Source of the DNA: a virus
IMG/VR virus record: IMGVR_UViG_3300030101_000951
Location: 1-24,827 of that record
Length of the DNA stretch: 24,827 bases
Strand: one strand, 5' to 3'
A model generated the notes under the pieces. The model searched no databases. It was not told where the DNA came from and was given only the letters and a program-made list of their open reading frames with translations. The translations under genes and the position numbers were made by a program. Below, piece after piece: positions 8,315 through 22,869 of the stretch. Numbering within the stretch: the stretch's first letter is position 1; each line of letters opens with the position of its first letter.

Positions 8315-8423
8315 TCTTGAACCTATGTTTAAAGAACACAACTAGATTAATTGCAGTGTTGACAGTGATAGCTCCGATAAGCCACCACTGCCACCACGTC
8401 GGCATATCTCCCCCGTCTGTCAT
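8295..8423 (-). CDS. 42-aa single-span membrane protein
   Basis: ATG 8421-8423 overlaps the stop of the reductase gene (ATGA), a coupling also seen elsewhere in this operon. The product begins with MTDGGDMPTWWQWW and continues with one hydrophobic span of about 20 residues (roughly 13-32), followed by a basic tail rich in Lys and Arg. This predicts a single-pass inner-membrane protein with the basic tail in the cytoplasm. The size and topology are compatible with a small holin-like or membrane-effector protein, but no lysis gene is adjacent and the function is unknown. Confidence 0.6.
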   Translation of the reverse strand: MTDGGDMPTWWQWWLIGAITVNTAINLVVFFKHRFKNDRQKK

Positions 8424-10360
8424 GCCGCATTCAGATCGACAACTTCACACACTCCAGCCGTGCAGGCCAACTCGCGAGAGCCTGACGTATTGTCTTCTCG
8501 CTCATATTCGGACAACGCCTGCCAGTCAATGTTGAGGTAGCCGTACGCTTGTTGCCACTCCAAATAATCTTCGCGTTCGATGTCTTGGTAGGGTGCCTGC
8601 TGATAGGTGTGATCACTGTGCGGCAGGAACGACACGCCCGACGCCACGTCAAAGTTCTCGTACACCCACGCGCCCACGTCCATCCACTCGTCCTCTTTGA
8701 CCGTGATGGTCACAGACGGCTTGTGTTCGCACCAGTGAACAGCGTACGTCTTCCAAAGCTCTAGCTGTTCAATAGCCGTCAAATCATTGCGAGTAACCGC
8801 CCTGTCAGGCGACTCCATTGCAAAAGAAAACACAGTCGTGTTATCCGGTTTCATCACGTCAGGCTCGTTGTACACGCCCTGTTCTTTAAGGAACTGTGTC
8901 AGCGGGTCTTTGTTGTCTCCGCGAACCGTGCGTATGTAGTATTTACTGTGTCTAGCGTGAATGCCGCTTGCAGCGTCCACCAGTTGCGACACAGTACCCG
9001 ACGGCTTTACACAGGTGATAGCAGCCGACTGTGGAATACCAAGTCCGTTTGTTGCCAAGTCCCAGTTTGTGTCTACGGCCACGCGCTTCATCTCTTCGAG
9101 CCAACGAGCGGAATCGACGTTCTTTGATAAAACGTGATGATCCATGATACCAGTCAAGGATACGCCCAACAATCGTTCTTCTTCTGTGTTGGTCTTCCAT
9201 ATCTTCCTCAAATACTTGAAGTCAGTAAGAGTGGACTGCAGCGTACCCAAGATAGTCGCAAGATGGACCTTTTCTTTCAGGTCTTCCAGTGTGTCGTAGT
9301 CACGGACAACCACCTCTGACAAGTTGCAAAACTGGTAGGGACGCAGGATGATCTCACTGCATGGGTTGGTGCCCCACATGTGTCCCGTCTCACGACGTTC
9401 ATTACGGGCAACCTGTTTGTCGGCAGCGTCACGATTAAAAATGCCACGCTCTCCGGACTTGGAGTCGTACAGAGCCAACCACTCGCGCATAAATGTGCCC
9501 ATCTCTGGCTTGCCCTTGTAGGCAACAGAATTATTAGCCAGCGCACGCTGGCCCTCGTTCTCCCACCACGCACCAGACTTGGCGTGTGCCATCTGATCGT
9601 CGTTCAGGTTCGACAAACTAATCAAAGCTGAACGACGTACGCCGCCTACCACAACGACCTCGCCCACCTTGCACATCAAGTCGTGACACTCAATAGGGAA
9701 CAAGCGACGACCTTGTGCTTTTACAAATAGTTGCACAGCAAAGTTAAACAAATCTTCGAGTGGACCCGGGCCAGAAGCACGACCGCCCATTGTCTTCAAA
9801 CGCGCACCAGACGGGCGTATAGCAGACAAGTCCCACTTCGGGATGTGGCCTGCATATAGTAGTGCAATCAATTCGCGCAGTGCTTTAGCCCACCCGGGCT
9901 TGGAATCATCTACCTTGATCACAGTGTCTGTAGGCTGCATACCGTCACTGATTACCGGAAGCTTGTCTACATTCTCGCGCTCGACAGAGAAGCCCACGCC
10001 TGTGCCACACATCAATATGTACATGCACTCGTCAAACGCACGAGGGCTGTCAACAGGGATGTAGCTACAGTTGTATCCGCAGATGTTGTCGCGTGCAAGA
10101 GCGGGACCGGCAGTCATCATAGCACGCATAGACGGCATGATATCCTGATTAAGTATGGCCTGACGTAGTTTGCCTACATCACCGGGACACAAGTGTTCTA
10201 TGTCAAAGTCGTGCTTCTCTTTGACGTGATCGATCATAAACTGCAGATAGCGTTCTACAGTTTCGTCCCAGTTCTCTCGGCGCTGTTCATCGTCAAGCCA
10301 ACGTGCATAGCGGGACTTGTGGATGAACTGCTGATAAGATGTAGGCAACATGTTATTCAT
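8420..10360 (-). CDS. nrdJ: adenosylcobalamin-dependent (class II) ribonucleotide reductase
   Basis: This 646-residue enzyme reduces ribonucleotides to deoxyribonucleotides using B12 to make the thiyl radical. The thiyl and acid pair lie in NPCSEIILRPYQFCNLSEV: Cys334, Glu336 and the redox partner Cys345. The other redox cysteine is near residue 98 in CGYNCSY. The C-terminus has CTAGVC (Cys633, Cys638), the swinging disulfide pair expected in this class. The length fits the monomeric Lactobacillus-type reductase common in phages, and no separate small subunit is present. ATG 10360 was chosen over an in-frame TTG at 10375 because AGGAG lies seven bases before the ATG. The gene overlaps DUF3310 upstream and the small membrane protein downstream. 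B12 must come from the host or environment. Confidence 0.95.
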   Translation of the reverse strand: MNNMLPTSYQQFIHKSRYARWLDDEQRRENWDETVERYLQFMIDHVKEKHDFDIEHLCPGDVGKLRQAILNQDIMPSMRAMMTAGPALARDNICGYNCSYIPVDSPRAFDECMYILMCGTGVGFSVERENVDKLPVISDGMQPTDTVIKVDDSKPGWAKALRELIALLYAGHIPKWDLSAIRPSGARLKTMGGRASGPGPLEDLFNFAVQLFVKAQGRRLFPIECHDLMCKVGEVVVVGGVRRSALISLSNLNDDQMAHAKSGAWWENEGQRALANNSVAYKGKPEMGTFMREWLALYDSKSGERGIFNRDAADKQVARNERRETGHMWGTNPCSEIILRPYQFCNLSEVVVRDYDTLEDLKEKVHLATILGTLQSTLTDFKYLRKIWKTNTEEERLLGVSLTGIMDHHVLSKNVDSARWLEEMKRVAVDTNWDLATNGLGIPQSAAITCVKPSGTVSQLVDAASGIHARHSKYYIRTVRGDNKDPLTQFLKEQGVYNEPDVMKPDNTTVFSFAMESPDRAVTRNDLTAIEQLELWKTYAVHWCEHKPSVTITVKEDEWMDVGAWVYENFDVASGVSFLPHSDHTYQQAPYQDIEREDYLEWQQAYGYLNIDWQALSEYEREDNTSGSRELACTAGVCEVVDLNAA

Positions 10361-10634
10361 CTGTAATCTCCTCAATAAGTTTTTCCAAGTACCACTGTGC
10401 CTTTTTTAGGTCTTGAGCGCCGTTCTTGTAACGATAACGCCACAGGTACTTAATGATGTTTCCTTGCAGGTAATACTCATAGCCTTCGTCTGTGGCAGCG
10501 CGTATGGCATCGATGCACTCAACCCCTGCCTGATTGTAGTGCGGCGGACTATTGACCATATCCACGTTGCCGTACGCCTCTTTCCCTGCCTGTTCTAATT
10601 CTTCTCGCATCCGCATGTATGCTTCGTGCCTCAT
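10353..10634 (-). CDS. DUF3310 protein (SaV-like)
   Basis: The 93-residue product carries the DUF3310 signature. NSPPHYN at about residue 28 is followed by the conserved core around VECIDAIRA, LQGNIIKYLWRY and a lysine-rich DLKKAQWYLEKL. The family is frequent in phage nucleotide-metabolism regions and its biochemical role is not established. The ATG at 10634 directly follows the upstream stop codon, and GGGAAG is about eight bases before it. The end overlaps the reductase gene start by eight bases, so the two are probably translated together, which fits a link to nucleotide supply. Confidence 0.85.
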   Translation of the reverse strand: MRHEAYMRMREELEQAGKEAYGNVDMVNSPPHYNQAGVECIDAIRAATDEGYEYYLQGNIIKYLWRYRYKNGAQDLKKAQWYLEKLIEEITDE

Positions 10635-10982
10635 CTACTGTGTCTTCCCAAAGCTAACCTTGACGATGTTTGTTTCCGGATCGTGTTTGACGCTTGGCTC
10701 ATTGTTAGTTTCCTCGATCATAGCCTCTTGTGTAGCTTCAAACTTTAAACGAGCGAGACCAGCTTGCATAACACGCTCGAAGTCTGATTCCATGAGTTCA
10801 ACAAGTCCGGAAAGGATGACCGAGCCTGCCGGGATGTACTCATCATCCTCGTCATCTGTAGATGTGTCATACGCCGTCATTATCACGTGATCGTCAGTGT
10901 CTCCTTGCCGGAAGACCAAGTACCACCGCTCGGACAGCAAACTAGCCTTCTCTAGCATTCCTTCCATATCTCTATCGTCCAT
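10635..10982 (-). CDS. acidic hypothetical protein, 115 aa
   Basis: ATG 10982 is preferred; the frame remains open upstream to 11051, but that part overlaps the C-terminus of endonuclease I. A GGAG lies ten bases before this ATG and the 11-base overlap with the preceding gene is typical here. The product is acidic, with a DTSTDDEDDEY segment near residue 40 and a helical middle (SGLVELMESDFERVMQ). No catalytic motif or membrane segment was seen. It lies between endonuclease I and DUF3310. I do not recognise the family. Confidence 0.7.
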   Translation of the reverse strand: MDDRDMEGMLEKASLLSERWYLVFRQGDTDDHVIMTAYDTSTDDEDDEYIPAGSVILSGLVELMESDFERVMQAGLARLKFEATQEAMIEETNNEPSVKHDPETNIVKVSFGKTQ

Positions 10983-11361
10983 GTTTACACCACTCCTCTG
11001 GGATCGAACCCTCTGCCCACTCGAACTTGTGCTTGGTAGCCCAGTCAGCATAGGTAGTTTTCGAGCCTTTGTAAATCTTGTTGTTCGCGCGTAAGAAGAC
11101 GAAGCGTATGTCGAGGTCGGGGTGCTGCTCCTTTACAAGCAACATCTTGATACGGTCTCCCTTATCTAAGTGCCCCTTTGCCTCAACATAGATGTTCGTC
11201 TCCGGAATGTAAAAGTCTGGTGTGTACGTTCGTGGTTTAGGAATATAGGTCAACTTTGTTGACTCATATTCGTAACCTACACCTTTTTCAGAAAGAGAAC
11301 GGGCTATGTTGAGTTCAAATGTTGAGCGGAATCCGGCCTTCATGGCCGAGCTTTGCTTCAT
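10972..11361 (-). CDS. endonuclease I, T7 gp3-like Holliday junction resolvase
   Basis: The product aligns along its length with T7 endonuclease I, which cuts branched DNA before packaging. FRSTFE holds the first acid (Glu16), RTYTPDF the second (Asp49), and YVEAKG the Glu60 and Lys62 of the PD-(D/E)XK centre. The EQHPDLDIRFVF and YKGS segments are also matched in T7. I chose ATG 11361, which overlaps the preceding stop as ATGA and leaves ten residues before the FRS motif, similar to T7 (129 aa). The frame is open to 11469 and would add a basic 36-residue extension, but that stretch overlaps the upstream gene. Endonuclease I usually acts as a dimer. Confidence 0.92.
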   Translation of the reverse strand: MKQSSAMKAGFRSTFELNIARSLSEKGVGYEYESTKLTYIPKPRTYTPDFYIPETNIYVEAKGHLDKGDRIKMLLVKEQHPDLDIRFVFLRANNKIYKGSKTTYADWATKHKFEWAEGSIPEEWCKHGR

Positions 11362-11738
11362 AGACGCATTCCGACGGACGCTAGCCTTTTTAGCAGATAC
11401 CCTGCCAGTCTTGGGGACAGACGTTCCAAAGGCGAGAATTCGTTTGTCAAGCGAGTCAGTGGGACGCATATATTAGCTCCGGAGTTTGCGAGGCGACTGA
11501 TCTTTCCGATCTCCGCCTCGACGGTTGTGATGTCGCGCTTTTCCGTATCGGATGATAGCGCACCTAAGTCACTGAAATTATTACGCAATGTAAGAGGCAA
11601 CCCACGCCCGTGCTGCCTGAGAAAGACAGTCTTTCGTTCACCGCCCACACCCCCGTGTGACTCGATGTACACGTGGTGCATATCTTTATTGAGTTCTAAA
11701 AGTTCGAGATCGTAGTCCCGAATGAAAACATAAGGCAC
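11358..11738 (-). CDS. hypothetical protein between exonuclease and endonuclease I
   Basis: The 126-residue frame starts at GTG 11738. AGGAG lies seven bases upstream, and the nearby ATGs at 11740 and 11743 are in other frames. The stop overlaps the preferred endonuclease I start (ATGA). The N-terminus looks like beta strands (MPYVFIRDYDLELLELN), followed by a His/Gly-containing segment and a long helical half with leucines at regular spacing near the C-terminus. No catalytic motif is evident. Its placement in the operon suggests a role in DNA metabolism, but I cannot name a family. Confidence 0.65.
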   Translation of the reverse strand: MPYVFIRDYDLELLELNKDMHHVYIESHGGVGGERKTVFLRQHGRGLPLTLRNNFSDLGALSSDTEKRDITTVEAEIGKISRLANSGANICVPLTRLTNEFSPLERLSPRLAGYLLKRLASVGMRL

Positions 11739-13525: not shown

Positions 13526-15067
13526 TTACAGTTCTACTTCATGTAAGTCAAGCCAATTTTTACCTGCTTTGATTTCTATACCGACGGGCATGTCGTACGT
13601 GACACCGTAACGTCGAACAGTTTCAAAAGGTAAACTCAACATAGCGTGTTTCATCATGTCTATACAGATATCTTTTTCATCGGGGTGTACATCCATGACG
13701 ATAGAGTCGTGTACGGTATTGCAGATCACGCTGCGTATCCCGGAGTCACGTACTACCCTCTCTAAGGCGACGAGAGCGATAGGCAAGAGGTCAGCTGTAG
13801 CAAACCCCTGCACCGGGTAGTTACAGATAGATGTGCGGTGCGTAGCCGTGCCGTACTTCGTCCACCGTGCATCAGGGAAAGCATACTCGCGCCCAGACGG
13901 AAGTGCGATTGCTCGCCGTTCAACGGCCATACGCTGCAGGTCGTCGTGCCACCGGGTTACCCCCTCGTACTTTTGCTTAAAGGCTCTGTAGTAGCGTTGT
14001 TGAGCTTCTGTGCCGGTTGTGCCCCCGTAGAGAGGCTTGAAGGTGTGTGCCTTCGCCTCTTGTCGTGTGCAGCCAATGACGGACGCCGTGTAGTTGTGTA
14101 CGTCCGTCCCGTCCTTCACATCTATGTACGCCTGTGCATCTTTGGCGAGGAATCCGGCAACCCGAAACTCTAGCTGCGAGTAATCTCCCTCAATGATGAA
14201 GCCACCCTCAAAGCGGCTCTCGACAACCTTCCGTATAGCGAAGGTATTTCCACGTGGCATATTTTGAAAGTTAGGATTGCGGCTCGAAAGGCGACCCGTC
14301 GCCGTAACACACTGCATGAATTCTGGATGGATGAAACCTTGTCCGTCCACATTGTTCTTGATTCCTTCTACGAAAGTATTGAGGTACGTACGCAAGGCGT
14401 TGAAGCGGACGTATCCGTTTACAAATTCGTGTGCGTCACCCGACAACTCGGACGAACGTACGTCGAGTGTATCCTTATCCGTACGAAACCCTGCAGAAGC
14501 TACGTCGTACGAGTCGCGTGGTGACATCTTGAACCCGGCAACCTCGCCTGTTGGCATGTAGAGTACACCCTTGCCATCACACTTGCGGCACACACGCACT
14601 GCTTTGCCGAGCGTACCATCCTTCCTTACGACACGGGTACGTCCGTGACCCTTACACGCAGGACACGTCTCGGCACGTGTCTTGTACACGATATCGGTCA
14701 TGCGGCGCACGGTCTGATTGAACTCGCGCTGTGAGAAGCGGGTACGTTGCTTCGGCTTCATCGTTGCGCCACGTTGCTCCATGCCCAAGTTGAACGTACG
14801 CGACCAAGCCTTCTTATCTTTGACCTTGCGGGAATAGAGAAGCATCGACCGGTCGTCGGGGCTGGTCAGGCTGATAGGTGTGTCACCCATAGCCTCACAC
14901 GCTAGCTCGTTGAGCCGCACTTCTAAGGTCTCTAGCTCTTCTGTATACATCTGCTCGATCTCATCGAGCGTATCCATGTTGATCTTCAAACCTACCTGCT
15001 CGGTACGAGCGAGTACGTCCGTCATCTCAAGCGACAGCTTCAGTGTGGGTACGAGTCCCTTTTCCAT
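13526..15067 (-). CDS. family A DNA polymerase, polymerase part only, with inserted zinc motif
   Basis: This 513-residue protein holds the palm, fingers and thumb of a Pol I-type replicase but no exonuclease domain. Motif A is DYSQLE (295-300), with TGRLSSRNPNFQN before it. The fingers helix is R335-x3-K339-x3-F343-x3-Y347, matching Arg754, Lys758, Phe762 and Tyr766 of E. coli Pol I. Motif C is HDS (453-455). In the thumb region, residues 135-163 carry two C-x2-C-x-G-x-G units, a DnaJ-like zinc knuckle, roughly where T7 polymerase has its thioredoxin-binding insertion. ATG 15067 has GAGGAG seven bases upstream and overlaps the exonuclease gene by 41 bases. The two products probably associate to form the full replicase. 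Confidence 0.95.
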   Translation of the reverse strand: MEKGLVPTLKLSLEMTDVLARTEQVGLKINMDTLDEIEQMYTEELETLEVRLNELACEAMGDTPISLTSPDDRSMLLYSRKVKDKKAWSRTFNLGMEQRGATMKPKQRTRFSQREFNQTVRRMTDIVYKTRAETCPACKGHGRTRVVRKDGTLGKAVRVCRKCDGKGVLYMPTGEVAGFKMSPRDSYDVASAGFRTDKDTLDVRSSELSGDAHEFVNGYVRFNALRTYLNTFVEGIKNNVDGQGFIHPEFMQCVTATGRLSSRNPNFQNMPRGNTFAIRKVVESRFEGGFIIEGDYSQLEFRVAGFLAKDAQAYIDVKDGTDVHNYTASVIGCTRQEAKAHTFKPLYGGTTGTEAQQRYYRAFKQKYEGVTRWHDDLQRMAVERRAIALPSGREYAFPDARWTKYGTATHRTSICNYPVQGFATADLLPIALVALERVVRDSGIRSVICNTVHDSIVMDVHPDEKDICIDMMKHAMLSLPFETVRRYGVTYDMPVGIEIKAGKNWLDLHEVEL

Positions 15068-15608
15068 CGAACAACTCCTCGAATGTTACGCCAAAGGCGT
15101 CTAGCTGTTTCAGTGTGATCTCTTCCGTAGCCTTTACGTCGGCTATTCCATACTCTCGTACGATCTCCCACGGTATGTCGTAGAAGGTCTTACCCGCCGT
15201 GAGATACGGCGCAATAAGGTCAGTCTCTTTTTGGGTGACACCATACTTCCTTGCAAGAGCAGCAAGTCCGAGAGGCCAACGCCTTGCCTTCGAAAGAATG
15301 TATTCAGCAACCATCGTATCATAGATATCTCCATCGTAAGTGAAACCACACTCACGTATCCACTGCAAGTCAAACTTGATATTCTGACCTACGAGTACGT
15401 CAGCGTGGTTTAAGGCGGCTTGAAATTTTGTGAACGCATTTGAAGTCGGCGGCTGTGTCGAATGATAGTAGCAGTCGTAGTCCACGCTACTAACTAGCCA
15501 CTTGTAGCCAATAGACACCAAGCGATTACCAAAGTAAGGCAGAGGTGTGTAGCCCCCGCCCGGCTTCTCCACGTGCGTCGTCTCTACATCGAAAGTGAGT
15601 ACGTTCAT
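15027..15608 (-). CDS. 3'-5' proofreading exonuclease, separate part of the DNA polymerase
   Basis: The 193-residue product is a DEDDy exonuclease. Motif I is FDVETT (Asp7, Glu9), motif II is GQNIKFDLQW (Asp80) and motif III is REYGIADVKA (Tyr153, Asp157). In E. coli Pol I and T7 gp5 this domain is fused ahead of the polymerase; here it is a separate gene directly upstream of the polymerase gene. ATG 15608 is chosen over the adjoining TTG because it overlaps the helicase stop as TGATG. The protein ends soon after the exonuclease fold, so this is a clean domain split rather than a truncation. It presumably proofreads in trans or in complex with the polymerase. Confidence 0.92.
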   Translation of the reverse strand: MNVLTFDVETTHVEKPGGGYTPLPYFGNRLVSIGYKWLVSSVDYDCYYHSTQPPTSNAFTKFQAALNHADVLVGQNIKFDLQWIRECGFTYDGDIYDTMVAEYILSKARRWPLGLAALARKYGVTQKETDLIAPYLTAGKTFYDIPWEIVREYGIADVKATEEITLKQLDAFGVTFEELFDGKGTRTHTEAVA

Positions 15609-16837
15609 CAATAGTACAACCCGCGCTGCACGTCGATGTTTGCGTTGATCATGTCGTGATAACCATTGATCTTGTTCTTCGAGATACAGATGTGGCGTAC
15701 CGTGTTTGTCACGTCACTCGCCCCGGTCTTGCCGATGCCGATGATGATGTCAGCCTCGCCAGCCTTTCCGGTACGAGAGTTGTCGAGCATAGAGTAGTCG
15801 ATGAACTGACGGTCGTGCGCCTCGTAGCTAGCCTGACTAACGGCCCACACGAGACAGCGGTTACGCTTGGCAATCTCACGCGCAAGCACGTAAGTCTCCT
15901 TGAGGCGCTCGTCGCCCCGATTGTACTCGCCGCCGATACGAAACTTATCTAGCTGATCCATGAACATCACATCAGGGCTATTGAGCTTGGCGTAGTCGTT
16001 TGCTTCTTCAACAGAAGTACCAATGGCGTCGATGATCGTCAAGTGCGGCTTGATCTCGGACACGTACCGCATCATTAGGTGTGCCTTATCCGACACCATC
16101 TCGTCTTTCGACTTACCAAAGAACGACTGTATGATACGCAGCATGATCTTTTCTGCCGGTTCCTCGTTCGCCCAGTAAACAACCTTGAACCCCTGTCGTA
16201 TGTACGAAGCGGCAAGGAACGAACAGAATGTGGTCTTACCCACTTCCGGACGCGCAAACAATATACCCAAGTTACCCCGATCCAAGCCGGGCACGTGTTC
16301 CCGAATCAGGTCGAACTCAAAAGGAAAGTCAGGCTCCCCTGTATTGTCTTCCAAGAGCGTGTCAAAGTCAGTGTCAACAATCCGATACGTGGTCTTGTCA
16401 GAAATCCGACCATCCTCTACAACGTCAATTAATTGACGCAAGCCACCAAAGTCTTCGCTTTCACCCGTGAAGATTTCGATAGCCTTCTCCCCGATCTGAC
16501 GCGCACGGTCACGCAGCCAGAAGTTGTTGACCAAGTCGAGGTAGAGGTCGTGCTTGTCGGGCGTACCCACTTCGAGTTCGGCAATCAACTCCTGTGCCTT
16601 CTCGCGCGTCGAGTCCGGCATCGCAGGGTTGCGGTCGTTGAACAACGCACCGAGTTCACGTACGTTCACAGACGTACCATACTGCGTGTGCGCGTATGAA
16701 ATTACGTCGAATACATCGCGCATCTCTCCGGTAAACATGTCTCGTGTCACGATGTTCGACACCTTCGTGAAGAAGTCGTTATCGAGTACGAACCCGAGTA
16801 CCTGTTTATCGATTGATATGGGATCGTAAGAAGTCAT
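15608..16837 (-). CDS. DnaB-like replicative helicase
   Basis: The 409-residue protein has a DnaB/RecA-type ATPase core: Walker A ARPEVGKT (195-202), Walker B in VMFMDQLDKF (near 290-299), the sensor segment WAVSQAS, and a C-terminal ISKNKING loop. The first 150 residues form a helical N-terminal domain as in DnaB proteins, beginning with a conserved-looking KQVLGFVL stretch. It would form a hexamer unwinding DNA ahead of the polymerase. The primase is encoded separately just upstream, unlike the fused T7 gp4. ATG 16837 has AAGGA eight bases upstream and the gene overlaps the primase gene by 32 bases. Confidence 0.93.
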   Translation of the reverse strand: MTSYDPISIDKQVLGFVLDNDFFTKVSNIVTRDMFTGEMRDVFDVISYAHTQYGTSVNVRELGALFNDRNPAMPDSTREKAQELIAELEVGTPDKHDLYLDLVNNFWLRDRARQIGEKAIEIFTGESEDFGGLRQLIDVVEDGRISDKTTYRIVDTDFDTLLEDNTGEPDFPFEFDLIREHVPGLDRGNLGILFARPEVGKTTFCSFLAASYIRQGFKVVYWANEEPAEKIMLRIIQSFFGKSKDEMVSDKAHLMMRYVSEIKPHLTIIDAIGTSVEEANDYAKLNSPDVMFMDQLDKFRIGGEYNRGDERLKETYVLAREIAKRNRCLVWAVSQASYEAHDRQFIDYSMLDNSRTGKAGEADIIIGIGKTGASDVTNTVRHICISKNKINGYHDMINANIDVQRGLYY

Positions 16838-17721: not shown

Positions 17722-17862
17722 ATGAAAAAAATCAATAAGATAAACCCTATAGCTAAAGAATTACCCAAGTATGGTAAGCGGGTTGTACCTGACAAACGTA
17801 AGATCAAAGAAGACAAACGATTGACAAAAGAGGTACGCGATGCCAAGACCACCGAAGATTGA
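17722..17862 (+). CDS. 46-aa highly basic protein, first early gene
   Basis: A short frame runs from ATG 17722 to TGA 17860-17862. The product begins MKKINKINPIAKELPKYG and is very rich in lysine and arginine, with a VVPDKRKIKEDKR segment. It has no cysteine and no hydrophobic span. It is the first gene after the early promoter and overlaps the ribbon-helix-helix gene by 23 bases. The ribosome-binding site is weak (AGGG about ten bases upstream). Similar small basic proteins are familiar to me from marine podoviruses, but with no known role; binding to nucleic acid or a host target is only a guess from charge. Confidence 0.6.
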   Translation: MKKINKINPIAKELPKYGKRVVPDKRKIKEDKRLTKEVRDAKTTED

Positions 17863-18067
17863 TGAGCCTACCAAAACGTACAATTTGCTCATCTCTGTAT
17901 CTATGTACGACAAACTAGCTAAACATGCCGAACGATTACACGCCAAGAGTATCACACAGGTATCTGTTGGTGACTTGATCCGTGAGGGTATAGAGATTTA
18001 CTTGGAGGCACTCGACGATGATGACTACGAAGGTGGTGTGGGTCCTCTTGCTAGTGACAGCATATAA
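17840..18067 (+). CDS. probable ribbon-helix-helix DNA-binding protein, 75 aa
   Basis: ATG 17840 has AGAGG six bases upstream. The product shows the Arc/CopG order of a ribbon-helix-helix: a strand (TYNLLISVS, about 13-21), a first helix (MYDKLAKHAERLH), a turn, and a second helix (VSVGDLIREGIEIYLEAL), followed by an acidic tail. Such proteins bind DNA as dimers through the strand. As the second early gene next to the divergent promoter region it may repress or time early transcription. The fold call rests on pattern recognition and not on a database match. Confidence 0.6.
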   Translation: MPRPPKIDEPTKTYNLLISVSMYDKLAKHAERLHAKSITQVSVGDLIREGIEIYLEALDDDDYEGGVGPLASDSI

Positions 18068-18218
18068 CGGCGAAGACTTTGATTTTGAACGTATCGGATC
18101 GTACGACACGATAGCAGAGTGTTACGTCGCATCGACACAAGAATTCTGGGACGAGATGCCTATAAACAAGGAAGCCTTGTGCATAAGGGTGGAGGAGCTA
18201 ACAAGTGAGACGAATTAA
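18018..18218 (+). CDS. small protein with hydrophobic N-terminus, DUF1482-like pattern
   Basis: Two adjacent ATGs, 18018 and 18021, can start this 66-residue frame; GGAGG lies about nine bases before the first. A hydrophobic N-terminal stretch (VVWVLLLVTAY) is followed by a short soluble part with the pattern F-x-F...G-x-Y-x-T...EC and a second cysteine near the C-terminus. This resembles the small DUF1482 proteins of enterobacterial prophages, though I cannot confirm it. It may be exported or membrane-attached. The gene at 24405 encodes a protein with the same pattern. It overlaps the genes on both sides. Confidence 0.6.
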   Translation: MMTTKVVWVLLLVTAYNGEDFDFERIGSYDTIAECYVASTQEFWDEMPINKEALCIRVEELTSETN

Positions 18219-18474
18219 ACTACCGAAGGATCGCAAGGGTAATGACCTCATGCCGTACGTTGTATCGAATGATAACCGACACGAAGTCGTCGCTCCGGTT
18301 TCATCTGTAAGGATCGGGGAGACAAACCGAAACGCAGTCAAGTCGAAGCAGTGCGTGGACTACGCACGCTGGGTTGCATTGTTTGTCGGAAGAAGTGAAG
18401 CCGAGTGCAAAAGATGGCTTGACAAGCACAGAACGACGGTGCTAAAGCTGTGTATACCGTACGAGGTTTCCTAA
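18205..18474 (+). CDS. hypothetical protein, 89 aa
   Basis: GTG 18205 begins inside the end of the previous gene, and GGAGG about ten bases upstream supports the start. The product is basic, with a polar N-terminal half and a C-terminal half containing CVDYARWVALFVGRSEAEC and a KRWLDKHRTTVL helix. No motif of known function was recognised. It ends just before a strong terminator, so it closes the first early transcription unit. Confidence 0.65.
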   Translation: MRRIKLPKDRKGNDLMPYVVSNDNRHEVVAPVSSVRIGETNRNAVKSKQCVDYARWVALFVGRSEAECKRWLDKHRTTVLKLCIPYEVS

Positions 18475-18519
18475 CGGTTCCTTTTCCTCGTACGGTACTC
18501 TTTAGTGGTTGAAGTTGGG

Positions 18520-18556
18520 CAGGGCTGGCAGAAATGCTGGCCCTGTTCTCTTTTTG
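18520..18556 (+). terminator. rho-independent terminator with GAAA tetraloop
   Basis: Bases 18520-18530 and 18535-18545 form an 11-pair stem (CAGGGCTGGCA with TGCTGGCCCTG, two G-U pairs) closed by a GAAA tetraloop at 18531-18534. A T-rich tract, TTCTCTTTTT, follows. This would end the transcript of the first four early genes. Confidence 0.85.
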
Positions 18557-18558
18557 TA

Positions 18559-18587
18559 TTGACTCACTGTTTTAATACCCGTATGGA
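18559..18587 (+). promoter_or_regulatory. possible sigma-70 promoter upstream of the LexA-like gene
   Basis: TTGACT (18559-18564) matches five of six -35 bases. At 17 bases spacing lies TATGGA (18582-18587), a weak -10 box. It sits immediately after a terminator and before the next gene, where a promoter is needed. A GTTC-N7-GTAT element at 18545-18559 overlapping it resembles a decayed alphaproteobacterial LexA site (GTTC-N7-GTTC). Confidence 0.4.
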
Positions 18588-18600
18588 TAACTAATCGAAA

Positions 18601-18628
18601 CGCCAGCACATAGGAGATTGGCACATGG
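18601..18628 (+). repeat. 28-base leader repeat, copy 1 (contains the RBS and ATG)
   Basis: This stretch starts CGCCAGC, contains the ribosome-binding site TAGGAGAT and ends in GGCACATGG with the start codon of the LexA-like gene. It matches 18855-18882 at 26 of 28 bases. Confidence 0.8.
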
Positions 18629-18867
18629 TAAACAGGTATGGGCTTACAAAGAAACAGAAAGAGCTTCTTAACTTTTTGCGAGAACGCCGTAGCGAAGGGG
18701 AAGTGTCTCCGTCTTTTGACGAAATGCGAGAGGCTTTGGGTTTAGCTTCTAAATCCGGCATACACAGACTTGTCGTAGGTCTTGAAGACAGAGGATACAT
18801 TAATCGTATCCCAAATCGTAAAAGAACTATCAGATTAGTATGGGATCGTAACAACGCCAGCGCATAG
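18625..18867 (+). CDS. stand-alone LexA DNA-binding domain protein, 80 aa
   Basis: ATG 18625 has AGGAG eight bases upstream. The product corresponds to the N-terminal winged-helix domain of Lex[17 protein letters not shown], then [18 protein letters not shown] and [14 protein letters not shown], followed by the wing NRKRTIRLV. The SPSFDEM and SKSGIHRL wording is that of alphaproteobacterial LexA. The protein ends where the linker would begin, so it lacks the cleavage site and the S24 serine-lysine protease and dimerisation domain. It could occupy host LexA sites without being cleaved during the SOS response, or regulate phage promoters. The domain call is firm; the role is inference. The next gene follows after 11 bases with a duplicated leader. 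Confidence 0.88.
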
Positions 18868-18882
18868 GAGATCGGCACATGG
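18855..18882 (+). repeat. 28-base leader repeat, copy 2
   Basis: This is the second copy of the leader at 18601-18628, with two substitutions. Here its first half also encodes the last residues and stop codon (GCATAG) of the LexA-like gene, and its end is the ATG of the following gene. Confidence 0.8.
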
Positions 18883-19118
18883 AAATTACAGCGAAGCAAA
18901 GAAAAGACATGCTCGATGCACACAACAAACTGCGTAACATCATTAGCTATATCGATGACTGTCGGGATATAACTCTATCGCAAATACGTGACATGGAGGA
19001 GACGGTTTGTATATTGCATCAGATTGGCAACTTCCAGCCACGGAAAAACGAGGATGGCAGTAGTGTGTGGTATGCTGACTGGGTGTACGCAGAGGATGCG
19101 GAGTTGAAGAGTGAGTAA
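18879..19118 (+). CDS. hypothetical acidic helical protein, 79 aa
   Basis: ATG 18879 follows the repeated AGGAG leader at eight bases. The product is mostly helical at first (MEITAKQRKDMLDAHNKL, then a region with DITLSQIRDMEETVC) and ends with an aromatic acidic segment (WYADWVYAEDAE). There is no signal peptide, zinc motif or catalytic signature. It is translated next to the LexA-like protein with an almost identical leader, so the two are probably made in similar amounts. The function is unknown. Confidence 0.7.
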   Translation: MEITAKQRKDMLDAHNKLRNIISYIDDCRDITLSQIRDMEETVCILHQIGNFQPRKNEDGSSVWYADWVYAEDAELKSE

Positions 19119-19278
19119 TCATCAGAACGAGATGACCCTTGAGCGCTTGTACGACGAGGCAATAGAGGAGCTACGACCCTTCTTTGTCTCGGGCGATCCG
19201 TACAGCTACAAAGAAGAAGACTTACATCTTGCTGCCGTAGACTTGGCAAAGAAACGCTGGGAGACAGACTATGACTAG
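19111..19278 (+). CDS. small hypothetical protein, 55 aa
   Basis: GTG 19111 overlaps the end of the previous gene and has GGAG seven bases upstream, so it is preferred over the in-frame ATG at 19132. The product is acidic and helical, with an aromatic FFVSGDPYSYKEEDL segment and an AAVDLAKKRWE helix. It overlaps the membrane protein gene that follows by eight bases. No family is recognised. Confidence 0.6.
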   Translation: MSNHQNEMTLERLYDEAIEELRPFFVSGDPYSYKEEDLHLAAVDLAKKRWETDYD

Positions 19279-19552
19279 ACTGTATCAACTGGTGATGGAC
19301 AGCGCAAAGAACCCTCTGTCCAACATTCCCGACCTCAATACTCGACACATGATCATGCAAGTTCTTGCGTGGATGTGGTGTATAATTTTTTCATCGTGGC
19401 TGGGATCGATTGTCGTGTTTGGTATCAGTGCGCTTGTTCACGCAATCTTGTTGGCTGGCATCTTTATCACGTTGGGTGTGTTTGAGACCGCCAAGCGTAA
19501 GCCTCAGTATTTTGGTGGGCTGGGCAGAGGTAATGGAGGTGAACATGAGTAA
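19271..19552 (+). CDS. two-span membrane protein, 93 aa
   Basis: ATG 19271 has GGGAG seven bases upstream. After an N-terminal soluble part (LYQLVMDSAKNPLSNIPD) there are two hydrophobic segments, near residues 28-50 (VLAWMWCIIFSSW...) and 53-73 (ALVHAILLAGIFITLGVF), then a basic, Gly-rich tail. This predicts an inner-membrane hairpin with both ends in the cytoplasm. Small two-span proteins can be holins, but its early-region position argues for another role, such as altering the host membrane or excluding other phages. The function is unknown. Confidence 0.7.
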   Translation: MTRLYQLVMDSAKNPLSNIPDLNTRHMIMQVLAWMWCIIFSSWLGSIVVFGISALVHAILLAGIFITLGVFETAKRKPQYFGGLGRGNGGEHE

Positions 19553-19875: not shown

Positions 19876-20198
19876 TGGCAAAGGTAGAACGCTGTAAATG
19901 CTGGGACTGTGGCGGAGGGGGCGTCGTCGAGTACGAAGAGGCTAGGCCCGACCCTATCCGTGGCGGTGATCTTGTCGGCGTGATGGGTGAGTGTGAACAG
20001 TGCGACGGCAGCGGCGAGATGTTTCGCGCCAAAGCTGTTACAACTGCAGGTCTACGCGCCCTCTTGACACAGACAAAAGAATCAATGGAATATATCGAAA
20101 TCATGTCAGAAGACCTCGACAAAATATATACGCAGGTTGACTACACTATAGCAGCTATCGAACGCTACGAAAGAAAGGTAGGCACAAGAGATGGGTAA
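19875..20198 (+). CDS. small protein with DnaJ-like zinc knuckle, 107 aa
   Basis: ATG 19875 overlaps the preceding stop, with AAAGG eight bases upstream. Near the N-terminus are CWDCGGGG (Cys9, Cys12) and CEQCDGSG (Cys40, Cys43), two C-x2-C-x-G-x-G units that together should bind one zinc ion as in the DnaJ central domain. A charged helical C-terminal half (residues 55-100) follows. There is no J domain. DnaJ-type zinc knuckles bind unfolded protein or partner proteins. A similar pair of motifs is inserted in this phage's DNA polymerase. The function is unknown. Confidence 0.75.
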   Translation: MAKVERCKCWDCGGGGVVEYEEARPDPIRGGDLVGVMGECEQCDGSGEMFRAKAVTTAGLRALLTQTKESMEYIEIMSEDLDKIYTQVDYTIAAIERYERKVGTRDG

Positions 20199-20361
20199 GG
20201 TATCTGACTGGCTAATAGAGATGGAAGAGGACGCATCTTACATGACGCGCCAAGAGTTTACTGACAAGCACGGCGAAACGGTGGCCGAGATGTATGACAA
20301 ACTAAAACGTCAACTTGAAGGAACCCACGACGAACCGTCGGAGCCTGATCATGTGGGTTGA
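20191..20361 (+). CDS. small acidic helical protein, 56 aa
   Basis: ATG 20191 overlaps the previous stop and the frame ends at TGA 20359-20361. The product (MGKVSDWLIEMEEDASYMTR...) is acidic and predicted largely helical, with a DEPSEPDH tail and no motif of known function. The ribosome-binding site is weak. The overlap with both neighbours by 8-11 bases is in the style of this gene cluster and is the main support. Confidence 0.5.
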   Translation: MGKVSDWLIEMEEDASYMTRQEFTDKHGETVAEMYDKLKRQLEGTHDEPSEPDHVG

Positions 20362-21624: not shown

Positions 21625-21852
21625 CAAACGCGGCGACACTAAAAAATCGGGGACTAACTAATGGTTTCCGCTCGGCGCATTCTGGGGCGGGGTGGACTTG
21701 CGGGTTGGTCGGGCAGGCGGCGAGACGACGGGGCTAGCCTGCCACCTTTGCCGGTAGCGGAAAAGATTTTTTCATTTACCGCTTCAACCCGTGCAAAACA
21801 TGTGCCATGATTCAAGGCATCAACAACAAGCGAACCGGAAAGGAACCGACAC
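21625..21852 (+). other. structured intergenic region, possible small RNA or leader
   Basis: These 228 bases separate two accessory genes and hold no strongly supported gene. GGCAGGC at 21712-21718 pairs perfectly with GCCTGCC at 21737-21743, and AGCGG at 21756-21760 pairs with CCGCT at 21779-21783 around an A/T-rich loop containing TTTTTT. A 49-codon frame at 21661-21810, preceded by GGGGA, is possible but has unconvincing composition. The region may be the leader of the DUF932 gene, a terminator or a small RNA. Confidence 0.4.
21832..21846. promoter_or_regulatory. GAAC-N7-GAAC element over the DUF932 ribosome-binding site
   Basis: GAAC at 21832-21835 and again at 21843-21846 are separated by seven bases. 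This is the complement of GTTC-N7-GTTC, the LexA box known from alphaproteobacteria. Eight fixed bases would occur about once by chance in a window of this size, and the second GAAC is part of the local ribosome-binding box, so this is only a candidate site. Confidence 0.3.
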
Positions 21853-22869
21853 ATGCTTGACCTACCAACGAACACAATAGCCGCCGATATGGCGATTCGT
21901 ACCGGCGACGAAATCTACGCCATTCACAAAAACCCTGCCGACGTGGGCTTGTTCTCACGTTATGCAAAGGTGGAGCGGGTGCCGATAACTGCCAGCACCC
22001 CGACCCGCGCTTATGACGACCGAATGGAATTTGACATAATGACCGACCGACCTGTGGAGGGTTACTCGGCACTGTATAACCGGGCCACCGATAGCCTGTT
22101 GGATGTCCGGCCAATATCGCGGCACTATGCCCTAATCCCGCATGAAGAACTTTTTATGCGGCAGGCGGCGCTCTTGCATGAGTCCGAATTGCCGACCGAA
22201 AACGTCACGGTGACCGACCGAATCTATGGCTATGGTAAGCGGGTGCATCGCACGGTTGTTTTTCACGACCTTGCGACGGTAGACCGGACCCGTAGCGGCG
22301 AAGCCGACCGCGTCGAATGCCGCATGGACATTTTCAACAGCGTCGACCTGTCGTGGGCCTTTCAGGTGTTCTCGGGTGCCTACCGTGACTTGTGCCGCAA
22401 CTCTCTTGTTTTTGGCGGTGCCAAGTCGTACCACCAGCGCAAAATTCACAAGGGCCATATATCCGTCGACGCCATGATTTCGAAAGCCGGGTATGGCCTC
22501 GACATGTGGGTAAACAATCGCGATCAGATGAACGTCTGGAAAGAGTCGCATTGTTCGACCTTTGACTTCCAGCGGATGCTTCAGCAGACGATATGCCGCA
22601 AGAAGACGAAAGCCGCACAGCACGACGAAAAGCTGGCGATTAACGAAAGCAAGCTGAATTGGTTACTTGAGCGTTTCAGTGAAGAGACGCCCGAACTGGG
22701 CCTCACGCTCTGGGCCGCTTACAATGCCTTGACGCACTACGCCACGCACTTGCCGGGGACACAAAGCCGGAACTCCAACAAGGAACTAGTCGCTACCCGC
22801 CGCAATGACGAGGTGCGGGATGTGATCGGCTCTAGCTTCTGGAAAGGTCTGGAAAGGAACTATGCCTAA
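21853..22869 (+). CDS. DUF932 (phage/plasmid-like) protein, 338 aa
   Basis: ATG 21853 follows the GAAAGGAACCG box. The protein shows features of the DUF932 family found in phages, plasmids and genomic islands. These include RPISRHYALIPHEEL near residue 90, the central GAYRDLCRNSLVFGG (175-189) followed by a Lys/His-rich segment (KIHKGHIS), and LTLWAAYNALTHYATH (284-299). The family has no established biochemical activity; a link to mobile-element biology is known only from its distribution. The length fits. A mini-gene overlaps its stop codon. Base use is richer in G+C than in the replication genes, suggesting separate acquisition. Confidence 0.85.
   Translation: MLDLPTNTIAADMAIRTGDEIYAIHKNPADVGLFSRYAKVERVPITASTPTRAYDDRMEFDIMTDRPVEGYSALYNRATDSLLDVRPISRHYALIPHEELFMRQAALLHESELPTENVTVTDRIYGYGKRVHRTVVFHDLATVDRTRSGEADRVECRMDIFNSVDLSWAFQVFSGAYRDLCRNSLVFGGAKSYHQRKIHKGHISVDAMISKAGYGLDMWVNNRDQMNVWKESHCSTFDFQRMLQQTICRKKTKAAQHDEKLAINESKLNWLLERFSEETPELGLTLWAAYNALTHYATHLPGTQSRNSNKELVATRRNDEVRDVIGSSFWKGLERNYA

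Follow-up and report, generated by a model that had tools for sequence, protein, structure and literature searches.

We find that a single 80-codon reading frame of a marine phage encodes a protein consisting almost entirely of a complete LexA DNA-binding domain. Sequence comparison identifies the domain as the N-terminal domain of an alphaproteobacterial-type LexA, and the best reading, to which we give about an even chance, is that the protein acts as a RecA-insensitive stand-in for LexA and holds host SOS genes repressed. The window, the whole stretch of DNA analysed here, spans 24,827 bases and makes up an entire virus record; the features discussed are collected in Table 1.

Table 1. Positions of the LexA-domain gene, its parts and its surroundings in the window
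Feature	Position	Strand	Basis or remark
Small protein, weak ribbon-helix-helix match	17840-18067	+	Pfam RHH_1 E 0.22, below cut-off
Slot-marker gene, directly before the slot	18205-18474	+	Gene order in related loci
Hairpin of 14 pairs, terminator-like, closing the upstream gene group	18517-18548	+	Terminator scan
Promoter-like sequence TTGACT-N17-TATGGA	18559-18587	+	Conservation only
Leader/ribosome-binding-site repeat, copy 1, 33 nt, before the lexA-domain gene	18599-18631	+	
Gene for stand-alone LexA DNA-binding domain	18625-18867	+	80 aa, ATG to TAG
Recognition helix SKSGIHRL (residues 42-49)	18748-18771	+	LexA comparison; AlphaFold2 helix 43-55
Wing region (residues 55-71), diverged part	18787-18837	+	LexA comparison
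Tail codons 76-80 and stop of the lexA-domain gene	18850-18867	+	
Leader repeat, copy 2, 91% identical, reaching the start of the next gene	18853-18885	+	
Next gene	18879-19118	+	Comes first in the slot in several relatives that have no LexA domain
Exact GTTC-N7-GTTC	20321-20335	-	Coding end of small ORF 20191-20361
Exact GTTC-N7-GTTC	21832-21846	-	Leader of DUF932 gene; weak candidate phage operator

The gene has a ribosome-binding site, AGGAG, at 18612-18616, and residues 6-68 of its product match positions 3-65 of the 65 in the Pfam model LexA_DNA_bind (PF01726; E 4e-13), with a score of 49.4 bits against a cut-off of 23.7. The model of full-length LexA, TIGR00498, covers the protein at model positions 3-70 of 203 only, and the score of 52.1 bits lies below the curated cut-off of 110.95. 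An AlphaFold2 model of the 80-residue protein (pLDDT 76.5, pTM 0.65) contains three helices (residues 9-23, 31-38 and 43-55) and two strands (59-61 and 69-71), with tail residues 75-80 at pLDDT below 50, and the top nine Foldseek matches to this model in the PDB are LexA entries only (rmsd 1.5-1.9). The initial annotation, which had recognised a LexA N-terminal winged helix from two motifs and had proposed the profile search, is borne out by these results, and both motifs are found. PADLOC matches to CARF proteins (E 4e-4 and weaker) were read as a general winged-helix signal and set aside.

The protein stops at residue 80, before the Ala-Gly cleavage site, which has no counterpart here; the IAAG-xP context of this site is present in at least 75 of 80 LexAs selected by query (see below). 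The S24 peptidase domain (PF00717) has no match in the window at E<=10 and none at E<=0.01 in G001 and G002, the records holding L002 and L003. The earlier statement that the frame ends before both cleavage site and protease thus holds and, since the domain ends before the cleavage junction, the protein could persist.

The 80 best genomic relatives of the domain are long LexA ORFs, with at least 180 residues from the match onward, and come nearly all from Alphaproteobacteria by title; the closest LexAs are 64-67% identical to the phage domain. These 80, called query-selected here, were fetched with query words that include LASKSGIH, and their 80/80 helix identity is not independent. Because this selection biased the helix comparison, we built a profile-selected set of 63 LexA ORFs from the class and order of a Ca. 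Puniceispirillum MAG, made up of the 30 best-scoring loci of the class, the best of the order and a further group rather than every match, and so biased to canonical LexAs. Of 76 genomes of the class, 61 have a LexA profile match (58 above cut-off); for the order, 39 of 41 have one (37 above cut-off). At positions conserved in at least 90% of the 63 LexAs, the phage protein keeps 17 of 17 in the helix-turn-helix (residues 7-54). In the wing, from residue 55 onward, it keeps 3 of 7 (Fisher p 0.0033), and D55, I62, K66 and T68 stand in place of conserved LexA residues. A further difference, at residue 6, falls on the start methionine of LexA and is counted in neither class. The loss of four of seven conserved wing residues counts against a role at host SOS operators.

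SKSGIHRL is identical in 43 of the 63 profile-selected LexAs, and for 32 of these 43 the 250 nt upstream of lexA contain an exact GTTC-N7-GTTC, the published alphaproteobacterial LexA motif (PMC3323433, available part). The same box precedes 11 of the 20 LexAs with other, mostly similar, helices; it therefore goes with the family and not with SKSGIHRL alone, a second point against action on the host. Of the 80 query-selected LexAs, 75 have the exact box upstream, where the background rate would give 0.005 per 250 nt. Given the kept helix and helix-turn-helix and the box upstream of such LexAs, the phage protein would be expected to read host SOS boxes. An apparently unusual basic charge (+6, against a maximum of +5 in the 80 query-selected LexAs) was dropped, as 16 of the 63 profile-selected LexAs reach at least +6. 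A tree of the domain (53 rows, 70 columns, 33 of 48 inner branches open) leaves the window row long-branched and without a supported place, and lends no support to a SAR116 origin; mean identity, at 0.537 to the order and 0.530 to the class (30 ORFs each), fails to tell the two apart.

As a stand-in for LexA, the protein would derive from the winged-helix domain of an alphaproteobacterial-type LexA that an HMO-2011-type phage captured, cut directly after the wing. Its gene, which comes first after a conserved promoter-like sequence, would be expressed, and the protein would sit on host GTTC-N7-GTTC SOS operators, with host SOS genes as its probable target, and bind DNA as a monomer or weak dimer. 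Because both the Ala-Gly site and the S24 protease are absent, it would escape removal through RecA-stimulated self-cleavage, and host SOS genes would stay repressed while phage replication produces single-stranded DNA, presumably to the benefit of the phage. According to the available part of PMC10584840, the isolated LexA N-terminal domain retains some binding and repression, and its proteolytic removal is needed for SOS induction. The initial view that LexA needs its C-terminal domain is by this account too strong, though full LexA should bind more tightly than the domain by itself. A converse effect, in which a weak competitor displaces intact LexA and leaves host repair and recombination genes more active, would follow from the domain alone, as LexA's operator should be common to both proteins; however, the isolated domain itself represses (PMC10584840, same part) and no sequence feature suggests activation, so that we regard derepression as very improbable.

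Two uses had been suggested for such a protein. Shut-off of the SOS response is the better supported, by inference from the kept helix-turn-helix and recognition helix, the box upstream of LexAs of this kind, the lack of a box excess in the phage and the accessory status of the gene. Dedicated regulation of the phage itself fares less well, with gp6 of phage GIL01 as its precedent, and we consider it a real but doubtful possibility. It would make the protein a truncated LexA with a retuned wing, acting like gp6 on phage promoters through sites of its own and so repressing or activating phage genes, for example the DUF932 gene at 21853. In the available part of PMC6182141, gp6, a truncated LexA homologue, directly activates a late phage promoter; that a tested stand-alone phage LexA homologue works on a phage promoter counts against the SOS reading, and the altered conserved residues of the window protein sit in the wing, in favour of the regulator.

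The distribution of LexA-type boxes bears on both readings. The 40.6 kb of phage sequence contain 4 exact GTTC-N7-GTTC boxes against 1.6 expected, a number reached by 18 of 200 simulated sequences, and there is thus no clear excess, which speaks against a set of phage operators. The two exact boxes within the window (Table 1), one of them in a phage gene leader, nevertheless count against action on the host. In all 8 relatives compared that do not have the lexA-domain gene, no counterpart of the DUF932-leader box is present in the last 120 nt ahead of the start. In the window this box adjoins, at the DUF932 start, a match to the gp6-type site GaCACA-nn-TGTGaC with two mismatches (21848-21861), and both points favour a phage regulator; against this, it overlaps the ribosome-binding region of the DUF932 gene and lies outside the eight best window scores of a matrix of bacterial sites. 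With up to two mismatches allowed, the window has 4 gp6-type sites against 2.5 expected, no more than chance would give, although a homologue need not share the site. The remaining two exact boxes fall outside the window, each inside an open reading frame, and the promoter-like sequence of the lexA-domain gene itself contains no exact box. With up to one mismatch allowed, the window has 30 boxes against 24.9 expected, again at chance level. The position-weight matrix yielded no convincing promoter site, the best window score of 13.2 lying within the 8.6-15.8 spanned by the best scores of ten related loci without the gene; one G001 box outside the window scores 16.7, above all ten, and is inside an ORF.

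The lexA-domain gene is the first gene after the terminator-like hairpin and the promoter-like sequence. The gene group upstream of the hairpin opens with the small protein at 17840-18067, which has a homologue in 26 of 26 related loci listed. A terminator scan of 3.5 kb gave 5 terminator-like sites against 3.3 expected, and hairpins resembling that at 18517-18548 were recognised by eye in related loci. TTGAC-N16-18-TAT is kept in 24 of 30 slots (29 loci with the slot-marker gene, plus the window), and a sigma-70 scan did not list the window's promoter-like sequence. The slot, 18480-18630, and its counterpart in the 29 related loci share the terminator-like and promoter-like sequence and are followed by a variable first gene, so that the slot is an apparent exchange site for small genes. 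In several relatives, the -10 region has the palindrome-like ATAACCGATATTGGTTAT (L071, L088), which is perhaps the operator of a shared regulator.

Two copies of a leader repeat, AACGCCAGCACATAGGAGATTGGCACATGGTAA, lie 254 nt apart on either side of the lexA-domain gene, and copy 2 supplies codons 77-80, the TAG stop and the ribosome-binding site of the next gene. In L016 and L082, which do not have the lexA-domain gene, a single leader of this kind stands directly before the next gene. The simplest reading is that leader-to-leader recombination brought the gene in and that the leader supplied its tail, an inference that would also explain the residue changes at 76, 78 and 80 described below, in or beside that tail. 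Homology of the tail to the leader beyond the 33-nt repeat is only suggestive, as 6 of 500 and 15 of 500 shuffles reached the scores of the two tail-to-leader alignments.

Such an entry raises the prospect of a functionless passenger, a bacterial gene fragment carried in by leader-leader recombination, and the 33-nt repeats on both flanks, the stop codon and last residues within the repeat, and the presence of the gene in just 2 of 29 loci are all in keeping with it. We nonetheless think it unlikely, as all 17 conserved helix-turn-helix positions survive despite 64-67% identity to the nearest LexAs, a ribosome-binding site is present, and the frame is intact in two phage lineages, with three amino-acid differences confined to the last five codons.

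The distribution of the gene was followed through the best 80 of at least 600 polymerase relatives, 26 of which extend far enough upstream for a gene-order table. The slot-marker gene is present in 29 loci, a few of which end soon after it, and the lexA-domain gene follows in two: L013, which is the same phage, and L060. No other of the best 80 relatives has it at E<=1e-3, and various small genes occupy first place in the slot elsewhere. The L060 protein is 96% identical to that of the window, and identity for the 15 other matched genes is 37-92%, with 13 of these at 55-76%. At the DNA level, 18612-18884 is 97.4% identical and other aligned blocks longer than 100 nt are 73-86% identical; within the gene, 4 of 243 bases differ, one silently and three changing residues 76, 78 and 80.

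The lexA-domain gene is accessory in its phage group. As it is found in only 2 of 29 loci, core phage control in the group has no need of it, and it is missing from relatives that have the promoter-like sequence and gene order in common with the window, which speaks against a dedicated phage regulator; accessory status argues instead for action on the host. The rarity of the gene in the group is nevertheless counted against the SOS reading as well, together with the coverage of 40.6 kb of phage sequence, where relatives have 53-55 kb.

The carrier is assigned to the HMO-2011 type because of the closest named relatives of its DNA polymerase: pelagiphage HTVC033P (47%), Roseobacter phages CRP (37-41%) and Puniceispirillum phage HMO-2011 (39.8%). 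The full-length best matches of Pol A are HTVC033P, the CRP phages and HMO-2011, and this replication gene points to an HMO-2011-type marine phage. G001 is 99.945% identical to the window across 20,077 bases and is the same phage; the window and the outer part of G001 together make up the 40.6 kb covered, and it is the named relatives that measure 53-55 kb. No integrase was found in G000, G001 or G002, all of them fragments, and integrase matches above cut-off are present in two related records without the lexA-domain gene (those of L023 and L036), so that these results do not establish a virulent lifestyle. In the part of PMC9038755 available, the HMO-2011-type group is described as a dominant marine phage group with SAR116, SAR11 and other hosts, in which genes for lysogeny cannot be identified in subgroups IV to X and most members of I and III have an integrase. 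The SOS response is relevant in such infections, because host recA, lexA, umuD and umuC are upregulated when pelagiphage HTVC027P infects SAR11 (PMC12753301, in part).

Stand-alone LexA domains of phages are already known, and the window protein is set apart by its unchanged bacterial helix, its phage group and its leader-bounded insertion. Among titles and abstract starts on truncated or stand-alone phage LexA, GIL01 gp6 is the sole tested case recognised, and those on LexA with HMO-2011 concern host lexA only. The window protein is, like gp6, a phage-encoded LexA DNA-binding domain alone, without cleavage or dimerisation domain. In the available part of PMC6182141, gp6 is 44% identical in this region to the LexA of its own host, binds its own palindrome and activates the late promoter of a temperate tectivirus, whereas the window protein has the bacterial recognition helix unchanged and belongs to an HMO-2011-type phage with no integrase found in the part covered. 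GIL01 gp7, in the part of PMC4551915 available, favours DNA binding by LexA and interferes with LexA self-cleavage; it thus resembles the role proposed here, of a phage protein that keeps LexA-controlled genes repressed, but gp7 binds LexA and not DNA, whereas the window protein would itself occupy the operator. With alphaproteobacterial LexA (PF01726 plus PF00717, TIGR00498) the window protein shares the fold, the recognition helix and a predicted GTTC-N7-GTTC operator, and it differs in having no linker, Ala-Gly site or S24 domain, a diverged wing and a score below the LexA cut-off.

Seven other stand-alone LexA domains were found in named phages, 31-47% identical to the window protein. HTVC103P gp30 (85 aa) is likewise a small LexA-domain protein, as are those of Ssp-JY39 (103 aa), BDU-MI-1 (85 aa) and Phage Wrath (82 aa). 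Some of the seven differ in their recognition helix, which is STSSIAQM in HTVC103P, and all 8 proteins of alignment A1 match phrog_3502 (PHROG 3502, function unknown). In Psychrobacillus phage PVJ1 (L177, 1507-2966), a 67-aa LexA-domain gene directly precedes a gene annotated dinB / DNA polymerase V; the two may form a repair operon of the phage that includes a truncated LexA, and this arrangement favours regulation of phage promoters. LexA-domain frames of 94-221 aa also occur in the IMG/VR loci L006, L007-L009 (one protein), L010, L011, L012, L186, L188, L189 and L190, and 3 of 13 records tested have S24 matches at another place. A bolder form of the SOS reading, which we rate somewhat short of even, would have a RecA-proof brake, produced by truncation of a bacterial LexA behind the wing, that holds operators directly, spares LexA and RecA and moves between phages as a single-gene cassette into a common first-gene slot; the same-helix stand-alone domains of other phages in L006, L007, L010 and L012 would then be repeated inventions of this counter-SOS device.

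If the repression of host SOS genes proposed here is correct, the phage would have a minimal means of blocking a central stress response of its host, in which a repressor without an off-switch occupies the operators. Lysis timing, mutagenesis and resident-prophage induction might all hinge on such a block. Whether a LexA domain without its dimerisation domain silences the SOS regulon at natural expression levels is a testable question; a second is whether the wing changes compensate for the lost dimerisation domain.

Several other genes of the window deserve mention. A small gene at 19271-19552 has no family match in Pfam or PHROGs. The 7 further phage loci with a copy match it at 88-98% identity and many of the remaining genes at 50-75%, suggesting either recent exchange or strong conservation. 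Frames on the minus strand at 8420-10375 and 10972-11469 match B12-dependent ribonucleotide reductase and T7-type phage endonuclease I, respectively. Separate exonuclease and polymerase ORFs (13526-15067 and 15027-15611, minus strand), overlapping by 41 nt in different frames, make up a split DNA polymerase A, and HTVC033P is annotated with one longer polymerase gene in place of the split. The frame offset is identical in 66 of 66 loci tested, window included, and the exonuclease stop lies at a constant distance in the 14 loci shown; re-initiation and programmed frameshifting are testable possibilities here.
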